A stretch of DNA of 32,728 nucleotides from a virus. The position numbers and the translations under genes were made by a program. This document shows positions 1,464 to 32,728 of this stretch, one piece after another; position 1 is the first letter of the stretch, and every line of letters starts with the position of its first letter. Location: the IMG/VR virus record IMGVR_UViG_3300017991_000282, positions 1 through 32,728 of that record. One strand, given 5' to 3'. Below the pieces are notes generated by a model. It was not told the origin of the DNA, searched no databases, and worked only from the letters and a program-made list of their open reading frames with translations.

Positions 1464-1752
1464 TAGTTAACTTCCTCATGATTTTTGTAAGTATTTCAAC
1501 AGATTTTTCTAATTTGATAATTCTGTCGATTTGTTTTTCGTTCTCCATATCCTTTTGTATTATGATAGTCCTTAACCCTTCTAGTTTTGTATTTAAAGGA
1601 TTATCGTAACCGGGTTTTAAATTTGTAATTCCTTCGAGCCTTTCTAATTTATCAGCGATGCCTCCGATGAAGTTCATTTCGTCTCTAAGAATCTCTAATT
1701 CTGTAGTTTTTTTATGCCACTTAAAATTTATTTCCAATCTGCCAATTTTCAT
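1450..1752 (-). CDS. Small coiled-coil protein between helicase and primase
   Basis: This 100-residue protein is not one I recognise. It is highly charged with heptad-like Leu/Ile spacing (about residues 15-45 and 65-95), so it is probably an elongated coiled coil; no enzyme motif, Cys cluster or membrane segment is present. The start is well defined: ATG at 1752 overlaps the MCM stop as ATGA and is preceded by a strong GAGGAGGT SD, so translation is coupled to MCM. Its stop overlaps the primase start. Sitting between helicase and primase, it could be a bridging or loading factor, but that rests on position only. Confidence 0.7.
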   Translation of the reverse strand: MKIGRLEINFKWHKKTTELEILRDEMNFIGGIADKLERLEGITNLKPGYDNPLNTKLEGLRTIIIQKDMENEKQIDRIIKLEKSVEILTKIMRKLTNGDN

Positions 1753-4151
1753 TTTTGTACCTCCTCGTGTTTTGGTGTATTATCCAATTCATAATGGTAA
1801 TCTGAGATTTTCTTTATTCGTCTGTTATTTTCTAATTCGACTATAGTTTTTCTTACTTGTTCTCTGTTATCGTAGTCAACGAAATCTCTTATATCTCTGT
1901 CTGGATACAGTTCTAATAATTTTAATAGTTCTCCTTTTGTTTCGCCTAAATAATTAAAGTCATCGAAATCTGGCTCATGAAAATCTTCCATCGCTATTGG
2001 TGTATGATTTAAAGAGATTAATCTTTCAAAAATACGTTTTGTAGCGAACGACAATTCCGTTTCTCTGTTTATCAACGTTAATGTAAATAAAATAAAAACG
2101 TGAACTTGGTTTATTCTGTGAAACATTGAAAAAAACTCAGGATATTTATTAGCTAAAGCTTTTAGGAATCTTCTTGTTTGTAAACTCCATTTTGCTTCGA
2201 CTTCTTCATTTTCGAATTTTTTTCTAGTTTCATCTATTATTATATCAATTGTACTTTCAAATTCTGAAGCGAATAATTGTGAAAACAACTCCCTTTGTGA
2301 GTATTTTGATTTTCGTGCTTGAAGGTAATCTAATACTTCGATATCTTTTTGTTTTAAATGCGCTTTATCATATTTTGGGTGCACTAAAATAGACCAGTAA
2401 AATCTTTCCATTAATGGCTTTTGAAAATTCGTAAGATAATTTTTTGATTCTTCTCTGACTTTTAAAATTGCCAGTTTTAAGCCTTTTGGTATCTCTTGCC
2501 CGTAATCTTTTAAAGGTGCATAATAATCAAAATCAGGAGGAATATCTTTTGTTTTCTCAGCGATTTTACTTAAAAACGAATTTTGTTCTTGAACTTCACT
2601 TTCGTCCTTTTCATCGTTGCTATTAAAAATCTTCTTGATTTTATTTTCGTAGTGTCTTAAATGGTTTATGTCATAGTTTGCAGTGCCTGCTATTAAAGAA
2701 ACCCTTCGAAATTCTTTTCCACCTACAGTAGAAGATGTTCCACTTGCGGCTAATGCAACCGATTTAAACAAATTAATAGCTTTGTCATCAGCTAAAAATT
2801 GTGCATTGTTTATTTCGTCAAAGACAAATGCTTGGTTCGAAAATAAACCAGGAACATTCTTTTTCTTTGCGGTGTCTTGATAGAGGATTTCTTTCTGTCC
2901 TCCCGTAAGACCCGGTAAACTAAACCTCGGGCCAGAAATAAAACCGGCATTGGAATAGAACATGAAGTGTAGCAGTGTTAGCGCATATGTCTTTCCAATG
3001 CCGGGAGCGCCAAAATACAAACTGTGGTCAAGGTTAATTTCCTTGTTCACAGTGAGCGTGAGTTTTTTGATTGTTTCAACCATCATTGGTAATCTAGCTT
3101 TATTTGTGTCGATGATGAAACCTATTTTCTTGATGTGATTATGTATACTGTCTATTAAATTAAAAAAGTTATGTTCGTTTTCCATAGACGATTCTAATGT
3201 GAACGGAATTTTTGATTTTTCTTCTTTTGCAGTTAAACAAGTAAAATAAAATGAGTTAGTTTTTTGTTCAGTCCTCCCGAAAATCATTCCGTTAAAGAAG
3301 CCTGGGTGCAATTCTACAAAAGATTCTAAAAAGAATTCTTTGAATTCTGAGCCGTCTTTTCCTTGAATTTCTATAGCAACCTCATAAATATAGGTTGGAA
3401 TCATTTTTCTGGCCGGAAACTTTTTTAAAGCGGTTTTGCAAATCTTATCGTCTCCTATTTTATTCTCACAACGATAGGTTACCTGATTATCTATTTTAGC
3501 TGCAGGAACTACATAATTTGTATTGCAATTTGGGCAACTCACGAATCTTGATGTAACGAAAGCAACTTCATCTATTTTTCTTAATACATAAAATTTCAAT
3601 AGAAATAACTTAGATGAAAAGACGGGAGAATTTTTATCAGCAAAATTTATCTTGTCGTAACTTAATATGCCCACGTTATTAAATTTCCATTGGTTTGGGT
3701 CATTCATGGCTTCTGATTCATCTGACACGATTTTAAAAAATCTAGAGTACATTAATTTTCCGTTAAATGTAATATTATCTCCATCAATTAAAATACCTTG
3801 GCTTTCTAAATTTTCATCAGAGTGGTCTAATTCGCTAAAATTAGAATATTGTTTTGTCCAAATGTCGACTGCATCGAAAAATTCTTGTGTTAGTTCGATT
3901 TCTAAAGCTTCTTCATTTATGAATTTCAACCAACCTTTTGAATATTTAACAATACGTTTAATATATTCAGCTGGCCTTTGTAATTCATCTTTATTAAGAA
4001 CTCGTTCTTCATACTGGTGCTTTTTTAATAGTAATTCCGCATGAAACTTTCTTATTCTTGGTCGCTTTTTTGAACCAGTTCTACCGAAGTGATTCATTAT
4101 TTCTTCTATTATTTCGTCCTGGATTATATCCACCTCTACGCTTTTTAACAC
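1749..4151 (-). CDS. mcm: MCM-family replicative helicase
   Basis: An 800-residue hexameric 3'-5' helicase candidate for unwinding viral DNA. Domain order fits archaeal MCM: N-terminal helical/OB region with a zinc-knuckle (C206, C209, C228, C238), then the AAA+ core with Walker A GAPGIGKT (381-388), Walker B AFVFDE (441-446), sensor-1 like LIAGTANY (487-493) and an arginine-finger-like MERF (581-584) where cellular MCMs have SRFD, then a C-terminal winged-helix region (about 736-795). It is somewhat longer than typical archaeal MCM (roughly 650-700 residues), with an acidic Asn/Glu-rich insert near 508-525. The GTG start has no SD, but a TATA box is centred about 27 nt upstream, so a leaderless mRNA explains it. 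First gene of the replication unit. Confidence 0.9.
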   Translation of the reverse strand: MLKSVEVDIIQDEIIEEIMNHFGRTGSKKRPRIRKFHAELLLKKHQYEERVLNKDELQRPAEYIKRIVKYSKGWLKFINEEALEIELTQEFFDAVDIWTKQYSNFSELDHSDENLESQGILIDGDNITFNGKLMYSRFFKIVSDESEAMNDPNQWKFNNVGILSYDKINFADKNSPVFSSKLFLLKFYVLRKIDEVAFVTSRFVSCPNCNTNYVVPAAKIDNQVTYRCENKIGDDKICKTALKKFPARKMIPTYIYEVAIEIQGKDGSEFKEFFLESFVELHPGFFNGMIFGRTEQKTNSFYFTCLTAKEEKSKIPFTLESSMENEHNFFNLIDSIHNHIKKIGFIIDTNKARLPMMVETIKKLTLTVNKEINLDHSLYFGAPGIGKTYALTLLHFMFYSNAGFISGPRFSLPGLTGGQKEILYQDTAKKKNVPGLFSNQAFVFDEINNAQFLADDKAINLFKSVALAASGTSSTVGGKEFRRVSLIAGTANYDINHLRHYENKIKKIFNSNDEKDESEVQEQNSFLSKIAEKTKDIPPDFDYYAPLKDYGQEIPKGLKLAILKVREESKNYLTNFQKPLMERFYWSILVHPKYDKAHLKQKDIEVLDYLQARKSKYSQRELFSQLFASEFESTIDIIIDETRKKFENEEVEAKWSLQTRRFLKALANKYPEFFSMFHRINQVHVFILFTLTLINRETELSFATKRIFERLISLNHTPIAMEDFHEPDFDDFNYLGETKGELLKLLELYPDRDIRDFVDYDNREQVRKTIVELENNRRIKKISDYHYELDNTPKHEEVQK

Positions 4152-9771: not shown

Positions 9772-11133
9772 TTACATATATGAGCTCCGTCTTCTTATTT
9801 CTGTTTCTTGGTATTCTGCTAATCTATTGGCTAAAGTCTGTATATCCATATCATTATTAATAGTAGCAGAGACATTAATGTAATTAGTAACGTTAATGCT
9901 TTCTTCGTTGCTTATTCCACCAATAGAACTATTAGAGACTTGTCCTGCTGTAATAACTCTTTCTCCTGCATGCAATTCGTAAAGCCCAGTTTTATCAATA
10001 TTACCGCCAGTAGCAAAACCTAGTTTGTCTCCTATCCAACTTCCTGCTGCTTTAAATCCTCCAGCGACTTTACCAACCGGATTCCAAGCTTTAACTTTTT
10101 CTATAAGGTCATCGAAAGGCTTTTTAATTAACTCCCATAAATCAGCTCCCCAATTAAGGACGACATTAAACCCTTTTACAAAGAAATCGTCCCAGATTTT
10201 AGAGCCCCAATTTAAGATACTTTCGCCAAATTTAACAAGATTAGGCCACAAATTATCCATAAAATTAAAGAATTTGTCTGCTCCTTTTTGTAGTCCGTCC
10301 CAAAGACCTTTAAAAAATTTTCTTGTGCCTTCTGCAAAAGACATAATTTTTTTGTCAGCCCACTTTAAACCATCTCCTAGCAATTCAAAACCTTTGATAG
10401 TTAATCCAACAGCCCAGACGATACCCTCTCCTAAGATTTTGTCAACAGTTTTTAATATATCGAAAAATAACTTAAATTCTCGACCGATCTCTTTAGCAAT
10501 GCCTTCAAATACATCCCAAACCCATTTTCCTACAACTTTTAGTCCTTCGAAAACTATACCTAAAGCACTAGCATTCTCTACTAATTTATCAAAGTTACCT
10601 ATACCCTTTCCATCGCCAATAGCTCCTTGGTCAGCCATTTTAGTTTTGTGTTCTTCGATATTTTTTTCTGCTCTGGCAATTTTTTCAGGGTCTCCCTCTA
10701 ATTTTGCAGATTGCAGTTCGGTGTCTAATTGTTTTAATTTATCTTCTGAAACTTCTTTATCTGTAGTTTTTGGTCCGAATTTCTTATACCAAGCCTGAGC
10801 AAATTTCATTAGCCAAACCATACCAGGTCTTACGAATTTTGCTAAAATATCGCCTATTGGTCTTAGTAAAAGCATAATGCCTTTTCCAAAGATAATCATT
10901 TGTTGTTTTAAAGCAGGAGAGGCTGCGCTGAGTGTTTTTAAAAGTTTGTTGCCTTCCCAGATTCCCAAAGACGCTTCGGCCAGATATTTTAAAGCCCTAC
11001 CTTTTATTCCGACTTTCATCTTTCCAGTACGTAAAGCAGAACCTGCCATAGACTGTGTAGCTTTTTTTCCGGCTATACTAGAACCCATTGACATTAATCC
11101 ACGTCCTGCTGCAGCAACAATAGGCGCTACCAT
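9772..11133 (-). CDS. Tape measure protein
   Basis: 453 residues from ATG 11133, which has GGAGG 6 nt upstream; the ATG at 11136 would leave only 3 nt. It sets tail length and fills the tube. The Ala/Gly-rich N-terminus, repeated amphipathic helices with periodic Trp/Phe (about 50-350) and the classic end GFATGGNIDKTGLYELHAGE (about 378-397, the GG..GLYELHAGERVI motif) identify the family. A charged coiled coil lies near 125-170. At about 0.15 nm per residue the tail should be around 65-70 nm, short for a siphovirus. The start overlaps the stop of the frameshift extension. No muralytic domain is present. Confidence 0.9.
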   Translation of the reverse strand: MVAPIVAAAGRGLMSMGSSIAGKKATQSMAGSALRTGKMKVGIKGRALKYLAEASLGIWEGNKLLKTLSAASPALKQQMIIFGKGIMLLLRPIGDILAKFVRPGMVWLMKFAQAWYKKFGPKTTDKEVSEDKLKQLDTELQSAKLEGDPEKIARAEKNIEEHKTKMADQGAIGDGKGIGNFDKLVENASALGIVFEGLKVVGKWVWDVFEGIAKEIGREFKLFFDILKTVDKILGEGIVWAVGLTIKGFELLGDGLKWADKKIMSFAEGTRKFFKGLWDGLQKGADKFFNFMDNLWPNLVKFGESILNWGSKIWDDFFVKGFNVVLNWGADLWELIKKPFDDLIEKVKAWNPVGKVAGGFKAAGSWIGDKLGFATGGNIDKTGLYELHAGERVITAGQVSNSSIGGISNEESINVTNYINVSATINNDMDIQTLANRLAEYQETEIRRRSSYM

Positions 11134-11336
11134 CATATGCCTCCGAAAGCTGTATCTTTTCCTTTAGCTTTTAATTTTATTTTCATTTTGACTAAAAAAT
11201 TGTATTCCTCAATTTCCATTTTAGCAATATCTCCTTTGCTATAACCTTTACTGACGAGCAAATCGTCTAAAATCCAAAATCTCTCTTTACCTGATTTCGG
11301 TATATTTCCGGTGTCAACAAATTCATCGACTATTAA
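11133..11336 (-). CDS. Tail chaperone T-part, made by -1 frameshift from the G gene
   Basis: A 67-codon frame with no plausible start of its own begins where the upstream chaperone gene ends. It reads from LIVDEFVDTGNIPKSG through GYSKGDIAKMEIEEYNFLV to AFGGI and stops at TGA 11135-11133, overlapping the tape-measure start. It is entered by a -1 slip at A_AAA_AAT (11342-11336), giving a fusion of about 194 residues. This matches lambda G and GT in position (tail tube, G, GT, tape measure) and relative size. In lambda GT links tape measure and tube subunits during assembly. The frame has no other explanation; slip efficiency is unknown. Confidence 0.8.
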   Translation of the reverse strand, partial: LIVDEFVDTGNIPKSGKERFWILDDLLVSKGYSKGDIAKMEIEEYNFLVKMKIKLKAKGKDTAFGGI

Positions 11337-11716
11337 TTTTTTCTTTCTTCTTCCGCTTCATCGTCTGTAGGATCAATAAGAGGATATAAACCGGCGAATA
11401 ATTCATCGTAATCTTCTATCTCCAGACCGTCTAGAATGTGTTCTATTTTAATATCAGGATCGATATTTTCGGGTCTTTTAACTATACATTTAGGTATTAG
11501 TTCCATAAAAAGAGTTGTTTTTTTGAATCCACCTGATTCATTTTCGGCCAGTGCCAAAGCTCTATTTCTTACTCCGGCTTTAGGTTTATTTATTGTCCAT
11601 ACACCAACGCTAGTAGTAACTTCTACAACGCCTGGTCTAACTACTTTGCTACCATTGTTTGCGAATGGGTCTTTATATTCTTCCGTCTCCTCGACTAATT
11701 GTTCTCTTTCCGTCAT
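11333..11716 (-). CDS. Tail assembly chaperone, G-like
   Basis: 127 residues, acidic at both ends, in the exact slot of gpG: after the tail tube gene and before the tape measure. The core (about 30-105) carries VGVWTINKPKAG and LFMELIPKCIVK followed by the acidic EIEDYDELF, reminiscent of phage chaperones that bind tape measure helices. ATG 11716 has a GGAGGT SD about 10 nt upstream. The last codons include the slippery heptamer, so a small fraction should be extended by the 67-residue T-part. The preceding gap holds a T-tract and a TATA-like box, so the gene may also have its own promoter. Confidence 0.8.
   Translation of the reverse strand: MTEREQLVEETEEYKDPFANNGSKVVRPGVVEVTTSVGVWTINKPKAGVRNRALALAENESGGFKKTTLFMELIPKCIVKRPENIDPDIKIEHILDGLEIEDYDELFAGLYPLIDPTDDEAEEERKN
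11336..11342 (-). promoter_or_regulatory. -1 ribosomal frameshift site A_AAA_AAT
   Basis: The last sense codons of the G-like gene read AGA AAA AAT TAA. The heptamer A AAA AAT has the canonical X_XXY_YYZ phase and lies directly before the stop. A purine-rich, SD-like GGAAGAAG lies about 10 nt upstream and a small stem (GTCGA/TTGAC) begins about 6 nt downstream; either might stimulate slipping. Confidence 0.75.
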
Positions 11717-11760
11717 TTTGTGCCTAACCTCCTTGGTATCGCGGCTGTTATATTGTACTT

Positions 11761-11800: not shown

Positions 11801-12805
11801 TTATGTTACTGTATACCACTTAATTGGTTTGTTACCAGAATCGTCTGTAGCCTGTTTTGCAGTCCCGTTTATAGTTAATTCTACTAGATTTTCGCCTATA
11901 TTTACGGGTTTTGAGATGTCATTTATAGCGCAATCTGATAACTTAATTTGTAATATCTTGTCTCCAGACACAGCTCCTTCTGCAAAATCGAAAATCAAAT
12001 TGTAAAAATCAGGTTCTGCGTCTTTTATACCGTCAGCAGGACTATCTGCTTGGCCATAGAAATGGTCTCTCAATGTAGTAGCAACTGTATCGGTCATTTT
12101 AACAACACAGACCCAATCATATTTTCTAAGACCAGGTGCTGCTTCTGGTATGAACCTTGAGCCTAATTCTCTTGCTACATCAGCATCGAAGTTGTTATTT
12201 ATATTTACAGAGAAGCTTCTTACTCTACCGACATCGGATGAATTCCAATTAAAAGCTCCTTGTGAAAATATCCAAAGCTTTGTTGTATCAGCAGTATATG
12301 CTCCTGCACTTGTTGATGATGTAACAGTTTTAGCAAATCCTGATAAAGAGCAGGTTAATGCGCCTCCTACTTCACAAGACAAACCGATAGTATTCATTAT
12401 ACAACCAGTAAGTAAATCATTATCATCGGTTGCACTTACGTCTTCACTACCTACAGCCAGTGCAAATGACTTCATACCGGTTGAGTAATCCATGTATTCC
12501 TTTTCTTCGATTGTATAAGGTGAAGCAGTAGAACCAGCTCCTGCCTTAACTCCAATTCCATATTCCAGAAAATCAGGGTCGCCTAAATAATATTCCATAG
12601 ACCAATCTACACTAAAGTTCCCGAGGCCGACGAATTGCTCATTTCTTCCGTCTCCTGCACCTGCTACTCTAATAAGATTGTTATTCCTATTAATAGTTAC
12701 AGATTGTATACGTCCCTTTACAGATGTATTAGCTGTACCTCCAGTGCCATAAGCAGTTTCAGCGCCGTGTTGAACGTTGGTCTGATAACCTCTGTACGTA
12801 ACCAT
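11801..12805 (-). CDS. Major tail tube protein
   Basis: 334 residues of beta-rich sequence typical of tail tube subunits that polymerise around the tape measure: an N-terminal arm (MVTYRGYQTNVQHGAETAYG), SVTINRNNNLIRVAGAGDGR, a central VRSFSVNINNNFD strand pair, and a C-terminal ENLVELTINGTAKQ. The paired N..NNN phrases look like an internal duplication of the tube fold. It sits between the tail terminator and the chaperones and is followed by its own T-tract, as expected for an abundant protein. The ATG has a GGAGGA SD. No sheath gene accompanies it, so the tail is non-contractile. Confidence 0.8.
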   Translation of the reverse strand: MVTYRGYQTNVQHGAETAYGTGGTANTSVKGRIQSVTINRNNNLIRVAGAGDGRNEQFVGLGNFSVDWSMEYYLGDPDFLEYGIGVKAGAGSTASPYTIEEKEYMDYSTGMKSFALAVGSEDVSATDDNDLLTGCIMNTIGLSCEVGGALTCSLSGFAKTVTSSTSAGAYTADTTKLWIFSQGAFNWNSSDVGRVRSFSVNINNNFDADVARELGSRFIPEAAPGLRKYDWVCVVKMTDTVATTLRDHFYGQADSPADGIKDAEPDFYNLIFDFAEGAVSGDKILQIKLSDCAINDISKPVNIGENLVELTINGTAKQATDDSGNKPIKWYTVT

Positions 12806-12820
12806 TTTATTTTATCCTCC

Positions 12821-13483
12821 TTAAGACATTAATAAGTCCCATTGTATATCTAATTTAAATTGCCAAATGTAAGCTTCTTTTTCGATATCATAATCGAAAT
12901 TTTCTAAATCATAAGCTCTTGCGATGTTTTGTCTAAATAGATTCTGTCTTCTTAATTTTCTTGCTAAATTAAACATTTCTGAAGCTAATCTTCTGGCACG
13001 AGAAGCGTATTTATCTCGTACTTCGTATTTATAAACGGCATTAAAATATGAACCAGTGCTATCTTCCATCGCGTCTCCTAAGCCAGCAAATTCTTCTGAG
13101 CCAGTAATAAACATCATTACTATTCTAGGCAATAGAATGTCTGTTCTTGAAAATTCTCTTTCAATTAAGCTTTTTCCATAATGATAACCTATAATAACAG
13201 AGTCACCGGTTGAAGCCCCAGTATTAAGTGTTACTTTAGTTTTACCTTTGCCTTCACCGTAAGTAACTAAATAATCGGTGCCTTTTCTTTTTGTAACGCC
13301 TTCTACAGTTATAGTATCGGCTACATTTTTTACAAAAACGTTATTTAACCAAAATACAGTTTGGCCGTCCGTTGCAGTATGAGTTTCAGTCGTATCTTTA
13401 CCTCTTGCTTCAGGATCGACTTGGTTATTTCTAAAATAATCAAGTAATTCGTTTTCTCTTTGATAAATAAATTCTTCTGCCAT
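12821..13483 (-). CDS. Tail terminator/completion-like protein
   Basis: 220 residues. Part 1 (about 30-105) is a small beta-domain (TVFWLNNVFVKNVADTITV, DSVIIGYHYG) like add-on modules in neck proteins; part 2 (about 106-220) is mixed alpha/beta, with TDILLPRIVMMFITG and a closing AYIWQFKLDIQWDL strand typical of tail completion proteins. Position directly before the tail tube gene and after the HK97-gp10-like neck gene fits the usual order closure, neck, terminator, tube. The ATG follows the previous stop by 2 nt with no clear SD, so translation is probably coupled. Assignment rests mainly on gene order. Confidence 0.65.
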   Translation of the reverse strand: MAEEFIYQRENELLDYFRNNQVDPEARGKDTTETHTATDGQTVFWLNNVFVKNVADTITVEGVTKRKGTDYLVTYGEGKGKTKVTLNTGASTGDSVIIGYHYGKSLIEREFSRTDILLPRIVMMFITGSEEFAGLGDAMEDSTGSYFNAVYKYEVRDKYASRARRLASEMFNLARKLRRQNLFRQNIARAYDLENFDYDIEKEAYIWQFKLDIQWDLLMS

Positions 13484-13485
13484 TT

Positions 13486-13998
13486 TTATATTCCTAATGC
13501 ATACCGTGCTTGACGTTGGTTATATTCTCGATTAAATTCCATACTTTTTACTGTTCTTAAAAACATGTGTATAGCTCTAACTCCTCTTACTGAGCTAGCA
13601 AATCTTCTACCTTTCCAGATTTTCCTGAACTTCAGAACTTTAGCCCGAAGAGGGACAATTGCACTTCTGTCGCTATGTTTATATTGTGTATTAAAAAGGC
13701 CAGTGCCGTTTTCGAAATAATCAGCGATTCTATTTAATTCTTCGCTACCAGCATCGACCCAATAATCATTTTCAAATATTTCTACATTAGGTTGAAATTG
13801 TAATGAATCTCTTAAATTTTCTAAGTTGTAACCGTATGTGTTTGTTGAAAGTAACTCATTATATCTTTTTTGTGCCTTCTTTCCCAAAACATTTAAAATC
13901 TTTAAACGTTCGACATTTGAAAGTCTTCCTGGTCTCAGCTTAGGCATTGCTTTAGATTCGCCTGCCCTTTTTATTGTTACAGTACTACTAGTTTTCAT
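13486..13998 (-). CDS. Neck protein, HK97 gp10-like
   Basis: 170 residues, basic. The pattern fits the HK97-gp10 family: N-terminal helix (NVERLKILNVLGKKAQKRYN), a LRDSLQF strand, a central IADYFENGTGLFN corresponding to the family's Y-x-E-x-GTG, a VPLRAKVLKFRKIWKGRRFA stretch, a VRGVRAIHMFLRTV segment corresponding to the conserved G...F, and a C-terminal helix. These proteins sit at the head-tail junction. It starts in a TAATG overlap with the closure gene. Confidence 0.7.
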   Translation of the reverse strand: MKTSSTVTIKRAGESKAMPKLRPGRLSNVERLKILNVLGKKAQKRYNELLSTNTYGYNLENLRDSLQFQPNVEIFENDYWVDAGSEELNRIADYFENGTGLFNTQYKHSDRSAIVPLRAKVLKFRKIWKGRRFASSVRGVRAIHMFLRTVKSMEFNREYNQRQARYALGI

Positions 13999-14402
13999 TA
14001 TCGGTTCGGCATCTTTTTTCCGTATGCTCTTATATCTGTTATAGTGTCTCCGTCTTCATATTTAGTTAAACGTAATACTTTATAAGTTTTCTTTCCGTCA
14101 ACGACATAGCCTTCTTCTTCTACAGAAGAGTTAGACAAAAAATTAAATCGTACATCGCCCAATTTAAATAGTCCCGCTTGGATAACTTCGTGTTTGCTAT
14201 TTAATTCTTGTAAAAATACGATTTCCTTTTTTCCAATTATAGATTTTGCTGACATAGGGTTATCTGTGACATTTCGTTCTTCGCCTTCGTAACCTTCATA
14301 TTCTAATGATTCTTTTCTTGGCATGACTAAAACTTCCTTTCCCATTTCTTTAGTCATGTTATTAAAATCTTCTTGCGCGCCAGCAGCATAATTATACTTC
14401 AT
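13998..14402 (-). CDS. Head-closure (stopper)-like protein
   Basis: 134 residues. The second half is a small beta-barrel pattern (GLFKLGDVRFNFL, EGYVVDGKKTYKVLRLTKY, DTITDIRAYGKK) as in head-closure proteins that seal the portal channel after packaging. Its place between connector and neck genes is the usual one. It overlaps the connector gene by 4 nt (ATGA) and the neck gene by 1 nt, so the three are translationally coupled. Confidence 0.65.
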   Translation of the reverse strand: MKYNYAAGAQEDFNNMTKEMGKEVLVMPRKESLEYEGYEGEERNVTDNPMSAKSIIGKKEIVFLQELNSKHEVIQAGLFKLGDVRFNFLSNSSVEEEGYVVDGKKTYKVLRLTKYEDGDTITDIRAYGKKMPNR

Positions 14403-16844: not shown

Positions 16845-18344
16845 TTATGTGTTATCAAAAACATGACAAGACCATTGATTGCTCATGTGTATACAATTTA
16901 AAAAATTATATTTTGTTTCACTAATATAATCTGTGTTATGCTCTAAAGCCAGTCTTGCATCTGTTGAACAAAGCCCTGATATGTGTGTATAATTAATGTC
17001 TGGTGATCCTGCAGATTGAGTTATAATTAACCTATCGCCCTCACTTCCACCATTAATACAATTTAAAACATCATTAGCTCCTCCTTCTCCAGTTACATAT
17101 ATAAATTCATTAGTATAAGTAATATTTCCTCCAGAAACAATTTGTGTAGTTGGTGGGGTATTTCTTTTTCCAGAATATTCAATATCTCCATTTACATCTA
17201 AAGTAGCACTTGGACTATTTGTACCTATACCAACATTGCCATCACTACCATCAAAAGTCACAAATGTATTACTTGATTCTGTAAATGTAAAACTACCATC
17301 TGCCCCGATTTTATAATTCATACTATTAGTCGGGTGGTCATATTTTATCCATCCAATATTATTATCATCTTCATCGCCAAATATTAAAGATTGTGTATCT
17401 GTATTCGGAGAAAGTAAATTAATATTTGTATCTCCATTGGACTCTGCAACTATTACTGCATTATTAGCCGTAACTGTTCCAGCTGAACCATCCCAAACAT
17501 GAAGGTTTCTATCTGGACTACTTGTTCCTATACCGACATTACCACTATCATCTATTACAAAGTCTGGGCTAATTCTATCACCATCTCTAAATATCTTTAA
17601 AACATCCGAATCAGCATCATCTACCATGATAGTATAATTGTTTGTAGTGCTTAATCCTAGATTGATAGAGGGACTATATTCTCCATTGTAAGACAACAAA
17701 TTTATTAAAGTGTTTTTACCGTTACCAGTAATGTCAAGTTGTCCAATAGGTGAAGTTGTTCCTATACCAACATTGCCACCATTAGGAACTAGATGCAAAT
17801 TATCACCCTTTCTTTCAATGGCTGAATATTGTGTAGTAGTAGGGTCTATTAAATTAATTCTTGCAGTTGTCTCAGAAGATTCAACTATAAATCCCGCGTC
17901 AAAAGTCCCAGAATTAACTCTAAGTACACCACTAACATCTAAAGTATAGTTTGGACTACTTGTACCTATACCGACTCTATTATTACTACTATCAACAAAT
18001 AAAGTGTCAGTGTCAAAAGTATAATCTCCTGTAACAGTATCTCCGTCTGTTAGCATAAATCTTTTAGTAATTACACTATTATCGCTAAAGTTAATTCTTT
18101 GTATTGCATAATTACTTGTAATAGCTGGGGTTATGCCTGTTAAATTTTCATAATCCATTGAACCAATAAAAGTTCCACCAATGATAGTATCTGTTGCTAT
18201 TATATTACTGAAGTTTGCTGTTTCATTTATTGCAGCCCAACCTTTTACATTTAAATTACCTACGTCACTTGTGCTATAAGCATTAATTAGTGAAACAGAT
18301 AATATAAATAAAAGTATTATCGTTAAAAATTTAAAGGGTTTCAT
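16845..18344 (-). CDS. Secreted fibre/adhesin with GIGT-SP repeats
   Basis: 499 residues. A clear signal peptide (KFLTIILLFILSVSLINA, cut near residue 22) is followed by four copies of a VGIGT.SP...LDV-type motif at about 124, 192, 270 and 371, each before a beta-rich segment, as in trimeric fibre shafts. The last 75 residues contain four cysteines, consistent with disulfides in an exported head domain. Tail fibres normally assemble in the cytoplasm, so the signal peptide is odd. The product may be displayed on the infected cell, or the virion may pick it up outside the membrane. The start overlaps the preceding gene by 14 nt, with GGAGG 11 nt upstream. Confidence 0.8.
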   Translation of the reverse strand: MKPFKFLTIILLFILSVSLINAYSTSDVGNLNVKGWAAINETANFSNIIATDTIIGGTFIGSMDYENLTGITPAITSNYAIQRINFSDNSVITKRFMLTDGDTVTGDYTFDTDTLFVDSSNNRVGIGTSSPNYTLDVSGVLRVNSGTFDAGFIVESSETTARINLIDPTTTQYSAIERKGDNLHLVPNGGNVGIGTTSPIGQLDITGNGKNTLINLLSYNGEYSPSINLGLSTTNNYTIMVDDADSDVLKIFRDGDRISPDFVIDDSGNVGIGTSSPDRNLHVWDGSAGTVTANNAVIVAESNGDTNINLLSPNTDTQSLIFGDEDDNNIGWIKYDHPTNSMNYKIGADGSFTFTESSNTFVTFDGSDGNVGIGTNSPSATLDVNGDIEYSGKRNTPPTTQIVSGGNITYTNEFIYVTGEGGANDVLNCINGGSEGDRLIITQSAGSPDINYTHISGLCSTDARLALEHNTDYISETKYNFLNCIHMSNQWSCHVFDNT

Positions 18345-18561
18345 CTGTACTTAATCCTCCTGCTATTAGTAATTGGCCATCTGATTTTCTAATCTTTAGT
18401 AAATCAGTTGCACCATAAGAAAGTTTAATATAAGTACCATCGTCAGACGCAACTAGACCAATTTCTTGTAAAATGCCTTCGACATTGGTAGATGTAAATA
18501 AGCTTTCGCTATCCGTAACATTTATATTCACCGCTTTATGGTTTCCTACTTTAGACATCAT
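18331..18561 (-). CDS. Small fibre-like protein
   Basis: 76 residues. It includes LFTSTNVEGILQEIGLVASD, the ft-a-t-nVegaLqei motif common in phage fibre and oligomerisation segments, followed by YIKLSYGATDLLKIRKSDGQ typical of a beta-shaft. It probably trimerises and may be an anchor or partner for the long fibre encoded next. Its ATG follows the previous stop by one base (TAAAATG) without SD. It lacks a signal peptide, unlike its partner. Confidence 0.65.
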   Translation of the reverse strand: MMSKVGNHKAVNINVTDSESLFTSTNVEGILQEIGLVASDDGTYIKLSYGATDLLKIRKSDGQLLIAGGLSTDETL

Positions 18562-18562
18562 T

Positions 18563-19027
18563 TTAAGCTATTACAACATTTCCATTTGGTGATATTGGCG
18601 ACCAGGATATATAATATGTAATTTTTCCTCCAGTTATTGTATCTGAAGCGATCGTTTGAATTACATCATCTGATACAATCTTTTTAGAAATAACGCTTGT
18701 TAACTCTAGAGAAGTATCAGGAGAAGCGTCATGCCAAATTTCATTCTCATCTATAGCATCGCCTGCTGTTTGTGCTATTAATCCTGCTGTAGAAGCTGCA
18801 GTTCCTACTTCAATTGTAGCTCCTGCACTAATAGTTAATGTAGTTTCACAAACTGCAAAAATACTTAATGCTACAACTCCCGTTACAGTGCATAAATCAG
18901 TTGCACCTACTGCACCTGTAGTAGCAGCAGCAAAAGTTATAGTTTTAGAAAGTCTGTTATCTAGAAGTCCGCTATTCAAATTATCTGAAATGCTTTGTAA
19001 GCATGTATTATTTGATTTCCTTGTCAA
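18563..19027 (-). CDS. Virion structural protein (beta-rich)
   Basis: 154 residues. From residue 28 the text TITFAAATTGAVGATDLCTV, VVALSIFAVCETTL, ATIEVGTAASTAGLIAQTAG and a closing ITYYISWSPISPNGNVVI resembles a beta-sandwich domain seen in many uncultivated tailed viruses near head and fibre genes. The start is TTG at 19027, supported by GAGAGGT 8 nt upstream and lack of another start before MTRK. Likely a decoration or fibre-base protein; precise role unknown. Confidence 0.65.
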   Translation of the reverse strand: MTRKSNNTCLQSISDNLNSGLLDNRLSKTITFAAATTGAVGATDLCTVTGVVALSIFAVCETTLTISAGATIEVGTAASTAGLIAQTAGDAIDENEIWHDASPDTSLELTSVISKKIVSDDVIQTIASDTITGGKITYYISWSPISPNGNVVIA

Positions 19028-24638: not shown

Positions 24639-26447
24639 TTAATTTAATTCTCGCCAAGTTAAACTACCCTCAACATCGACGTTAGTACTACCACCAACAG
24701 GAGTTACACAAAGTACAATCTCGTCAGGTGTACCATCAATCAAACTACCAAGCTTTAAAGCGTTAGTTACATTTGCTTGTGTTGAACCTACGTTTCCAGC
24801 TTGTCTACCACCTGATTCTGCGAAACCTGAATCTATTATATAACCACCTGTGACAGTATTATTTGTTGCACCTAATGCATATTGAACTGCTGATTGATTT
24901 TGGGCATTATAAGTAAATGTATCTGCAACTGCGGGATTAAATCTAAGTTCCCAAATTAATCTATCGTCGCCTGTTTGTAATTGTAATTCTATATTTAAAA
25001 CTTCAACGATTTCATTTAAATAATTAGGATGTAGTCTTATACCAATTAATGCATAAGTAGTATTTTCAGTATTAGCGTCTAAATGTGTTCCTGCTGTGTT
25101 TATACTTCTAACATTACCTAAAGGATTCTGGCCGCCCTCACTTATGATAGTACTACATATTTGGGTCATTGTAGATTCTGAACCAGTGCCATCATTTGAA
25201 ATCTCACTCCTAAGGGGTAGGTTTGGATTACTCATATAAACTTCTGTTAAATTGTTTGCATTTAAAAATTCATGACAATAATAAATAAGACCATCAACAA
25301 CAAAACCCATTCTAACCCTACCAACTCCTAACCATTCAAAATCAAAAGCCAATATATTAGTCTTAGTTAAATCAATCTCTATTCCAGATTTTCCAGTCCC
25401 ATCAAACTTATCTATATTCCAATTTGCTTGTGTTATAACATTATCAACAGCTGAACCAGTTACATAAGTTCTTCTAACAAATGAAAGTACTCCTCCATTG
25501 TCTTGTAAAAATAAACCGTTGTTTTCGTCAAACATACCTTCTCTTTGAGTTATGCCTGAACAACCACTACAAAAAGTAAAAGTCATAAATGTCAAGAGAC
25601 TTTTGCCCGGCTGGTAATTGAATCTTTGTTTTGTTTGTCTCACCCTTGTACCTGCAGTAGAATCAGAAACTGTTAAACTTTGGCTTGCAGTATCATTATC
25701 ATAAGCTGTGCTTGTACCTGTTCCACTAGTTTCTTGATTATCAAAAAATAAAATTTGATTTTCTTCATCTGCATTTTGGTTAGGGTCATCAAAAATGTTT
25801 TTAGAATCAAAAATAGTTTCAGGGTTACTAACCCTTAACCTACCAAAAGCGTCAATGTTAGATGTGTCAGCTAATCTTGCAGAAACTTCTTGGTGCCCAT
25901 ATTTATTTACTCTTTGTCTTATCCAATTATCGTTTTCTTCTTCATAACCATAATTTAAACTTACACTACTTGCAGTTGTGTTGTTTACATCGACGTCATC
26001 GTCATCCAAAACATATTTAGTTCGATAATCTATAATATACGCAAAACCGTCGTCTCCAGTCCATCTTTTCCAACTTTGACTTTTCCAATCATAATAGTGC
26101 ATTTCAGCTATTACGACTTGGGGTTGTTGTCCAGTTGCAACTGCATTGTCATCTATATCAGTAATAAATGGTGTCATTTTGGCACCAGCTGCACCAGCGC
26201 TATAATATCCGTAATTTCCAGAAGAGACACAAGCGGCATTATCTCTTTCGTCTTTAGAAGTTGTTAAATGGTCAGTATCTACTTTTAATCTGGTTGCACT
26301 TTCTGCGTCTTTAATTTCGACGGCCCCTATTTCTATATCAGCAGTAGAAAGTTCTGCGTCAACAGGCAATCTGTTTGTTGGTGTATAAGCTTCTCCTTCG
26401 TCATCGAATAGCCTTATTCTAATCCATCTTGGTAAACTCCAACCCAT
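24639..26447 (-). CDS. Large virion structural protein (AFGRLRVS family)
   Basis: 602 residues. The middle holds a signature known from many tailed-virus virion proteins: NIDAFGRLRVSNPETIFDSK near 207-226, then a VRQTKQRFNYQPGKSLLTFM stretch near 266-285. The rest is a large beta-sandwich (EGMFDENNGLFLQDNG, FVRRTYVTGSAVDNVI, IGIRLHPNYLNEIVEVLNIE). Such proteins are virion parts in phages with diverse hosts, often thought to be capsid or adhesion associated. It overlaps the preceding stop by one base (TGATG). Exact location in the particle is unknown. Confidence 0.7.
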   Translation of the reverse strand: MGWSLPRWIRIRLFDDEGEAYTPTNRLPVDAELSTADIEIGAVEIKDAESATRLKVDTDHLTTSKDERDNAACVSSGNYGYYSAGAAGAKMTPFITDIDDNAVATGQQPQVVIAEMHYYDWKSQSWKRWTGDDGFAYIIDYRTKYVLDDDDVDVNNTTASSVSLNYGYEEENDNWIRQRVNKYGHQEVSARLADTSNIDAFGRLRVSNPETIFDSKNIFDDPNQNADEENQILFFDNQETSGTGTSTAYDNDTASQSLTVSDSTAGTRVRQTKQRFNYQPGKSLLTFMTFTFCSGCSGITQREGMFDENNGLFLQDNGGVLSFVRRTYVTGSAVDNVITQANWNIDKFDGTGKSGIEIDLTKTNILAFDFEWLGVGRVRMGFVVDGLIYYCHEFLNANNLTEVYMSNPNLPLRSEISNDGTGSESTMTQICSTIISEGGQNPLGNVRSINTAGTHLDANTENTTYALIGIRLHPNYLNEIVEVLNIELQLQTGDDRLIWELRFNPAVADTFTYNAQNQSAVQYALGATNNTVTGGYIIDSGFAESGGRQAGNVGSTQANVTNALKLGSLIDGTPDEIVLCVTPVGGSTNVDVEGSLTWRELN

Positions 26448-31599: not shown

Positions 31600-31822
31600 G
31601 TGAAAGTGGATATATGATTTGCATAGCAAAAAAATTAAAAAGTGAAAGTGGATATATGATTTGCATAGCAAAAAAAATAAAAAGCGAAAGTGGATTATGG
31701 ATTTTCTTAGTGTAAAGTCGTGTAAGGATTTTCTTAGTGTAAAGTCGTGTAAGGATTTTCTTAGTGTAAAAATTAAAAAGCGAAAGTGGATTATGGATTT
31801 TCTTAGTGTAAAGTCGTGTAAG
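31600..31822. repeat. Compound tandem repeats upstream of terminase genes
   Basis: Two 42-bp units (31600-31641, 31642-31683) share the start RYGAAAGTGGAT and an A-rich end. A related 96-bp unit (31684-31779) and a fourth, truncated unit from 31780 carry instead a 27-bp subrepeat beginning GGATTTTCTTAGTG (31699-31725, 31726-31752, partial 31753-31770, and 31795-31821). No CRISPR spacers are present. All unit lengths are multiples of three, which keeps reading frames open by accident or design. Candidate packaging initiation site (pac/cos) or iterons. Confidence 0.8.
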
Positions 31823-31992
31823 GACGGTTGGCTTCATACTATACCCCCTATTCTATTATATATTTTCTAACATCTATTTTACAAACTATATTCTATAAAA
31901 CATACTTTAAAATATATATTCTATAAAATATACTTCATAAGATACACAATAAAAAATAAATAATAAAATCTATATTCTATAAACCATATATC

Positions 31993-32073
31993 CTATTTTC
32001 TATATTCAAACATATAAAAAATAAAATCATAATCTATAATATCAATCAAAAAATCAACATTATCAAAAACCAT
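31993..32073 (-). CDS. Possible 26-residue peptide, cytosine-free
   Basis: ATG 32073 is preceded at 6 nt by AGAGGTGA, a near-perfect SD, and opens 26 codons (MVFDNVDFLIDIIDYDFIFY...) ending in TAG. The peptide is hydrophobic and acidic. It lies after a T-tract, so it would need read-through or its own promoter. The SD at correct spacing is the main support; the short length leaves doubt. Confidence 0.35.
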   Translation of the reverse strand: MVFDNVDFLIDIIDYDFIFYMFEYRK

Positions 32074-32091
32074 TTTTCACCTCTTAATAAT

Positions 32092-32117
32092 AAAACAAAA
32101 ATAAAAAATAAAAAATT
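32092..32117 (-). terminator. T-tract terminator after the cytosine-free gene
   Basis: Minus strand TTTTTTATTTTTTATTTTTG directly follows the stop of the 139-codon gene. It matches the T-tract style of the structural-gene terminators and supports that gene as a real transcription unit. Confidence 0.5.
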
Positions 32118-32535
32118 AAATATTCATTTTATTAATACTTAAAAAATTACTACCTTTATTCTTATTCTTCAAATTTCTCACTTTTTCCACAATATCAATA
32201 TAATTTATATCAATATTTTTTAACTCTTTTTTCCTCACTTCCTCAACTTCTTTTCTTTTTTCTTCATTCCACTTAACAACTCCACTACTACCTTTTACCC
32301 CAAAATACCTTTCTATTCTTCTATACCCATTTACCCCCCTACTTTTTACATTTAATTTATATTTATTCAAATATAAATCTTCACATTCTTTTTTATCTTT
32401 TCCTTCACTTTCTACTAAAAACAACAAAAATTTTTCTTCTTCACTAATTTTATTCAAATCATATTCTTTTTTATTAATCTTACTACTTACTACTTCCAAT
32501 TTATCTATATTTTTTTCCATTTCTCTCAACTCCAT
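32116..32535 (-). CDS. 139-residue protein encoded without cytosine
   Basis: Every base of this gene on its coding strand is A, G or T, so Ala, Pro, Thr, His and Gln cannot occur, and none do. Only 15 residue types are used. All three stop codons lack C, so they should be more frequent than normal in such DNA; 139 open codons argue for selection on the protein. It is Lys/Glu/Asn-rich and helical, with ISEEEKFLLFLVESEG, KSRGVNGYRRIERYFGVKG (about 64-82, perhaps a helix-turn-helix DNA-binding segment) and a long charged helix. Start is ATG 32535 or ATG 32520, which has GGAG nearby and a TATAAAAA box about 31 nt upstream. Function unknown. Confidence 0.65.
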   Translation of the reverse strand: MELREMEKNIDKLEVVSSKINKKEYDLNKISEEEKFLLFLVESEGKDKKECEDLYLNKYKLNVKSRGVNGYRRIERYFGVKGSSGVVKWNEEKRKEVEEVRKKELKNIDINYIDIVEKVRNLKNKNKGSNFLSINKMNI

Positions 32536-32684
32536 TAATTACATAAATTTTTATACATAATTAATACTATTAATAAATACATACTACTATATAAATATTT
32601 ATATTCTACAAACTATATATTCTATTTTACCAAAACCTTTATATATAACCTATATTTTCCTAAAATTTTTAATATATCCTCACT

Positions 32685-32728
32685 AAACTATATATTCCAA
32701 ACTATATATTCCAAACTATATATTCCAA
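32685..32728. repeat. 14-bp tandem repeat at the right edge
   Basis: AAACTATATATTCC occurs three times head to tail (32685, 32699, 32713) and continues into the edge with AA. A similar AAACTATATATTCT lies near 32610. The window stops inside the array, as happens at an assembly break or a genome end made of repeats. Confidence 0.9.

Follow-up and report, generated by a model that had tools for sequence, protein, structure and literature searches.

A putative programmed -1 frameshift in a G/GT-type tail assembly chaperone gene of a tailed, probably archaeal virus

Genes and features of the tail locus

The sequence analysed here in its entirety, hereafter the window, corresponds to positions 1 to 32,728 (32,728 bases) of the IMG/VR virus record IMGVR_UViG_3300017991_000282. 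It has a G+C content of 33.8%, and almost every large ORF lies on the minus strand, on which two overlapping ORFs, G and T, are found between a tail tube gene and a tape measure gene. The tail tube protein (Phage_tube_2, PF18906; positions 11801 to 12805, minus strand; Pfam E 7.2e-24) is encoded immediately upstream of G, and its best tblastn match in phages was the tail tube protein of HCTV-16 (28% identity, E 6e-12). The tape measure protein (454 aa; positions 9772 to 11136, minus strand) was recognized from PHROG tape-measure matches, with a best E value of 1.8e-5. The coordinates and the Pfam and PHROG matches give the order tail tube, G, T and tape measure, in agreement with the lambda-like G/GT order suggested in a preliminary description of this DNA.

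G (positions 11333 to 11716, minus strand) begins with an ATG and encodes, in the 0 frame, a predicted tail assembly chaperone of 127 aa (14.4 kDa); its Shine-Dalgarno (SD) sequence, AAGGAGGT, is located at positions 11727 to 11734 (minus strand; -11.8 kcal/mol with the anti-SD). The G protein of the window yielded no match in searches of PHROGs, Pfam and NCBIfam, and its assignment is based on the ORF, on its homologues, one of which (that of record G004) matched the tail assembly chaperone family phrog_344 (E 6.1e-4), and on fold matches. When the structure model predicted for G (pLDDT 72.6) was compared with viral models, the named ones near the top were tail assembly chaperones (E 4e-4 to 3e-3), including those of Bacillus phage Gemini (E 4.3e-4), HHTV-2 (Haloarcula hispanica tailed virus 2, E 1.5e-3), Mu (FS-gp41, E 3.1e-3) and Bacillus phage 019DV002 (within the same range). 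YqbN (3klu, Z 7.7) was among the top PDB chains, as was the third-ranked HK97 tail assembly chaperone (2ob9, Z 5.0); both Z values fall in the range that the tool calls middling, and the PDB Foldseek E-values (0.2 and 0.45) are above 0.1. The fold of G is predicted to resemble those of known tail assembly chaperones.

The 3' end of G reads AGA AAA AAT TAA TAG, with two stops in tandem, and contains the heptamer A_AAA_AAT (positions 11336 to 11342, minus strand) in the X_XXY_YYZ phase, followed directly by TAA TAG. No other in-phase X_XXY_YYZ heptamer is present in the 600 bases from the start of G. Counting back 25 nt from the end of the G stop, a TGA marks the beginning of the open -1 frame. 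A -1 slip on the heptamer would give access to the T extension (67 codons plus TGA; positions 11133 to 11336, minus strand), which reads LIVDEFVDTG...DTAFGGI past the slip and would form with G a predicted GT fusion of 194 aa (21.9 kDa). The T stop (TGA, 11135-11133) shares bases with the start codon of the tape measure gene, the ATG at 11136 (ATGA). The coordinates, the heptamer, the -1 frame and its end point, as well as the count of 67 codons, were all confirmed as they had been described. The probability of 67 open codons occurring in the -1 frame by chance is about 5e-4 as judged from the genes of the window and 1.5e-2 as judged from the stop density in all frames. The tape-measure Shine-Dalgarno sequence, GGAGG (positions 11140 to 11144, minus strand; -8.9 kcal/mol), lies inside the T reading frame, and we observed that it contributes to the codons of a Gly-Gly pair close to the end of T in the window and in the related records G002, G004 and G006.

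Relatives and conservation of the -1 frame

Scans of viral contigs with single proteins (G, tail tube or terminase) identified no relative. Seven viral contigs were found with the capsid protein, and four of the contigs found in this way (G002, G003, G004 and G006) contain homologues of both G (E 5e-34 to 3e-10) and T (E 1.2e-15, 1.4e-14, 3.9e-6 and 0.0115), with T shifted by -1 from G in every case. Alignments of the tail tube, capsid, terminase and G proteins added only L025/G011, L046/G008, which is a relative that carries the terminase but gave no G match, and a pair of distant fragments of terminase. In G005, the ORF after the tail tube gene ends in an overlapping -1 ORF with the slip site A_AAA_AAA; this ORF is not similar to the other G sequences (hhalign probability 0.1%) and its T is only weakly similar (6%), and G005 was counted for layout, not for homology. 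L025/G011, a near-copy of G003 (99.8% identical over the approximately 2.5 kb compared), was left out of all counts of six, and the related records G001, G007 and G008, in which no G match was found, were not counted. The region is thus represented by six distinct records, the window and G002 to G006, with identities to the window of 33-57% for G (four records) and 21-44% for T (five records).

In all six records, T is at -1 and an in-phase A_AAA_AAN heptamer (A_AAA_AAT in the window, A_AAA_AAA in G002, G003, G004 and G005, and A_AAA_AAG in G006) lies within a G/T overlap of 8 to 39 codons. The distance from the slip to the G stop differs in each record, and no relative shares the G stop placed directly after the heptamer in the window. 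The 0-frame tail past the slip comprises 0 to 35 codons and is of low complexity, being Ser-rich in the longest cases. By contrast, T displays a conserved pattern, IxxFVDxGxLP...RFWI...LLxxxGYTKxDxxxM...EYDF, that starts just past the slip. We compared frames in four of the six records (window, G002, G003 and G004; six pairs, 410 codon columns) and obtained a mean BLOSUM62 score per column of +1.62 for the T frame and -0.12 for each other frame; the differences in the T frame at codon positions 1, 2 and 3 numbered 185, 156 and 244 of 410, respectively. T is therefore conserved as a protein, and in the -1 frame only. Its predicted fold yielded no significant match among viral models.

The earliest standard start codon (ATG, GTG or TTG) that the T frame of the window offers is a TTG 25 codons past the slip, followed by an ATG 39 codons past it. 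None of the six records has a standard start before codon 25; the first one is 25-39 codons past the slip, after a conserved part of T, and in the window, G002, G003, G004 and G006 the first ATG is codon 38 or 39. The T pattern begins far ahead of the first T-frame ATG, and also ahead of the TTG of the window. The earlier proposal that T lacks its own start was therefore upheld, and the relatives, to which a check had been recommended, keep both heptamer and frame; a separate start for T or a loss of the T frame, either of which was regarded as contrary evidence, was seen in none of the six records.

The slip site and potential stimulators

In-phase A_AAA_AAN occurs 17 times in the 9549 codons of the window, and the corresponding chance probability of the heptamer is 0.014 to 0.067 per record, although this rate-based test overstates the case because lysine is abundant in the overlap. 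Given the amino acids of each record and the codon usage of the window, the probability is 0.31-0.74 per record, with a joint value (product) of about 0.01 over the records. The heptamer of the window is unremarkable alone, since the amino-acid stretch and codon usage give it a P of about 0.6, and the heptamer by itself was rejected as decisive evidence. A stronger fact than these P values is the maintenance, at the slip point, of a Lys-Lys or Lys-Asn pair within an otherwise poorly conserved linker.

A possible hairpin, GUCGAUGAAUUUGUUGAC (positions 11313 to 11330, minus strand; about -3.3 kcal/mol), is located 5 nt downstream of the slip in the window. It is weak, as previously described, and was not significant in a shuffle test (P 0.083), and the downstream energy ranked at the 8th percentile for 40 nt and the 30th percentile for 60 nt among 1240 positions. 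We rejected this stem as decisive evidence. Clear stems were nevertheless found in two relatives: in G005, a 13-bp hairpin lies 6 nt beyond the slip and was reached by 0 of 1000 shuffles, and G002 has a 9-bp hairpin at the same distance (P 0.004). The shuffle test revealed no significant stem in the window, G003, G004 or G006. The SD-like site upstream of the slip is weak in the window (-3.5 kcal/mol) and stronger in G005 (-9.8 kcal/mol) and G006 (-10.3 kcal/mol). A significant stimulator, which is a criterion for a programmed -1 site, was thus present in part in G002 (stem), G005 (stem and SD-like) and G006 (SD-like), and neither type was significant in the window, G003 or G004; no stimulator is common to all six records.

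Frameshifting, alternative explanations and known systems

Programmed -1 frameshifting is the most likely interpretation of these sequence data. The gene is very probably a G/GT tail assembly chaperone gene of a tailed virus, itself probably archaeal, and we infer that a -1 slip on A_AAA_AAT gives rise to G and GT. Most ribosomes would stop at the TAA, producing G (127 aa), and a minority would slip back one base on the heptamer, through re-pairing of tRNA-Lys and tRNA-Asn at -1 or slippage of the P-site tRNA alone, producing G-T (194 aa). By analogy with lambda, G may coat the tape measure protein and the T domain may bring tail-tube subunits to it, with a G:GT ratio that would be set by the slip rate (as described for lambda in PMC5009743).

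The A runs present at all six sites, which are long in G003 and G004, are also compatible with transcriptional slippage, in which RNA polymerase would add or drop an A in the run and mixed mRNAs would give G and GT. However, the run consists of only six A in the window and G006, and efficient transcriptional slippage needs about nine or more; moreover, the heptamer stays in phase and the hairpins of G002 and G005 lie 6 nt downstream, as at ribosomal sites, so we consider this explanation improbable. It is very unlikely that T is produced as a separate protein, either from a start codon within its own frame or through re-initiation linked to termination at G. The T frame opens a short distance from the G stop, and the window has an internal in-frame ATG (positions 11217 to 11219, minus strand) with an upstream SD-like sequence, AAAGGAGAU (-8.0 kcal/mol), that could give a 28-aa peptide, but the first standard start follows a conserved part of T in all six records. 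Furthermore, the SD is not conserved: at the conserved Met of T it is strong only in the window, as opposed to 0.3 to -1.7 kcal/mol in G002, G003, G004 and G006, and the ATGs near this position in G005, the T of which aligns poorly, have values of -5.3 and -4.4. The homopolymer at the join might also suggest a sequencing or assembly error, or a decayed gene, with both frames having once formed a single ORF. This possibility is extremely slight, given that the same -1 relation recurs in six distinct contigs at the divergence levels reported above for G and T, and that no two of them have the same distance between the slip and the G stop.

It is conceivable, if doubtful, that A_AAA_AAN is the one class of slip site retained by an uncultured and probably archaeal lineage of tailed viruses distinct from the known haloviruses, in which the stimulators change between stems, SD-like sites and neither. 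Because tandem stops come directly after the heptamer in the window, there may be competition between slippage and the release factor, with the stop possibly acting as the stimulator.

The lambda G/GT tail assembly chaperone frameshift was reportedly described by Xu, Hendrix and Duda in 2004. The lambda slip heptamer is G_GGA_AAG, unlike the A_AAA_AAT of the window, and no sequence similarity to lambda was detected beyond the phrog_344 match of one relative (G004). The two systems are nevertheless alike in gene order (tail tube, G, T, tape measure), in the position of the -1 slip near the end of G, and in having a T without a start that adjoins the start of the tape measure gene (PMC7911831, PMC5009743, for lambda). 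In archaeal viruses, -1 frameshifting has been reported for HVTV-1, HCTV-1, HCTV-2 and HCTV-5 (PMC8211752, PMC5009743). The g-t heptamer given for HCTV-2 is A_AAA_AAC, and by this description it is the same gene in an archaeal virus, with a heptamer of the A_AAA_AAN class (PMC5009743). Hardycor1 (HrrHc1_110/115) is also described as having a -1 slip on an X_XXY_YYZ heptamer before the tape measure gene, but the heptamer is G_GGA_AAT and, unlike that of the window, the haloarchaeal host is known (PMC7911831). HCTV-16 gp126/gp127 (Haloarcula virus, L002), from the archaeal tailed virus with the best tail-tube match, carries the annotation "putative programmed translational -1 frameshift" at a position between the tail tube and tape measure genes and has an in-phase G_GGA_AAC. 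However, two extra genes precede the HCTV-16 tape measure gene, and its chaperone is not detectably similar or homologous to the G of the window (hhalign probability 0.6%). A +1 event is discussed for HF1-like viruses (PMC7230728). One -1 frameshift is presented as demonstrated in archaea, and the archaeal viral cases as apparent (PMC8211752). The view that such signals are little documented in archaeal viruses therefore stands insofar as they have been little tested, but not as regards reports and annotations. Frameshifting of the G/GT type in archaeal tailed viruses is already in print, and the window is a well-supported new example; none of the titles in our literature search for prior work concerns its virus family. 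The six comparable sites, four of them without a significant hairpin, could show what the archaeal ribosome needs to slip, and they provide a pattern for gene callers to annotate, because T would otherwise be missed.

Host and other features of these viruses

The virus is tailed and its host, as judged by sequence, is probably archaeal, because of the replication genes of the relatives and the haloviral tail-tube match. The clamp loader of G005 is nearest to the archaeal RFC small subunit (1iqp, E 9.7e-49, versus 4.9e-26 for T4 gp44) and its family B polymerase (PolB) is near archaeal PolB; G006 encodes a family B polymerase with a uracil-DNA-glycosylase (UDG)-like domain and an XPB-like helicase. 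These observations favor the earlier designation of the gene as archaeal-type, but no host was found and no archaeal-like RFC or PolB gene was identified in the window. The capsid alignment revealed no relative among genome contigs (short patterns only). The terminase retrieved 14 loci from genome contigs, all with bacterial titles, that share 20-28% identity with it and were picked up by short patterns; these are too distant to name a host and, if anything, argue against an archaeal one. In phages, the terminase matches were mixed; most were to bacterial phages, and they included Halogranum tailed virus 1.

Some other features of these records were observed. A pair of QueC-like proteins and one radical SAM protein are encoded together by the virus G005 (L058:14356-15165, 13329-14039 and 18187-18825), which suggests a preQ0-type DNA or tRNA modification. 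In G006, the UDG-like domain is N-terminal to the family B DNA polymerase in a single ORF (L054:9273-11900). Of the window proteins that we scanned, the one at positions 24639-26447 had much the strongest PHROG match, to the virion structural protein family phrog_1645 (E 7.5e-92). An 800-aa AAA-like ORF (positions 1749-4151), with P-loop-like and zinc-ribbon-like text, has a homologue in G011 (60% identical) and produced no match in PDB, PHROG and NCBIfam searches; from reading the sequence, we would guess that it is possibly an MCM-like helicase. An Rfam search gave no match. Several A+T-rich tandem arrays are present near the end of the record (positions 31600-32728), including a perfect 27-bp array (31699-31770) and a 14-bp array reaching the last base.
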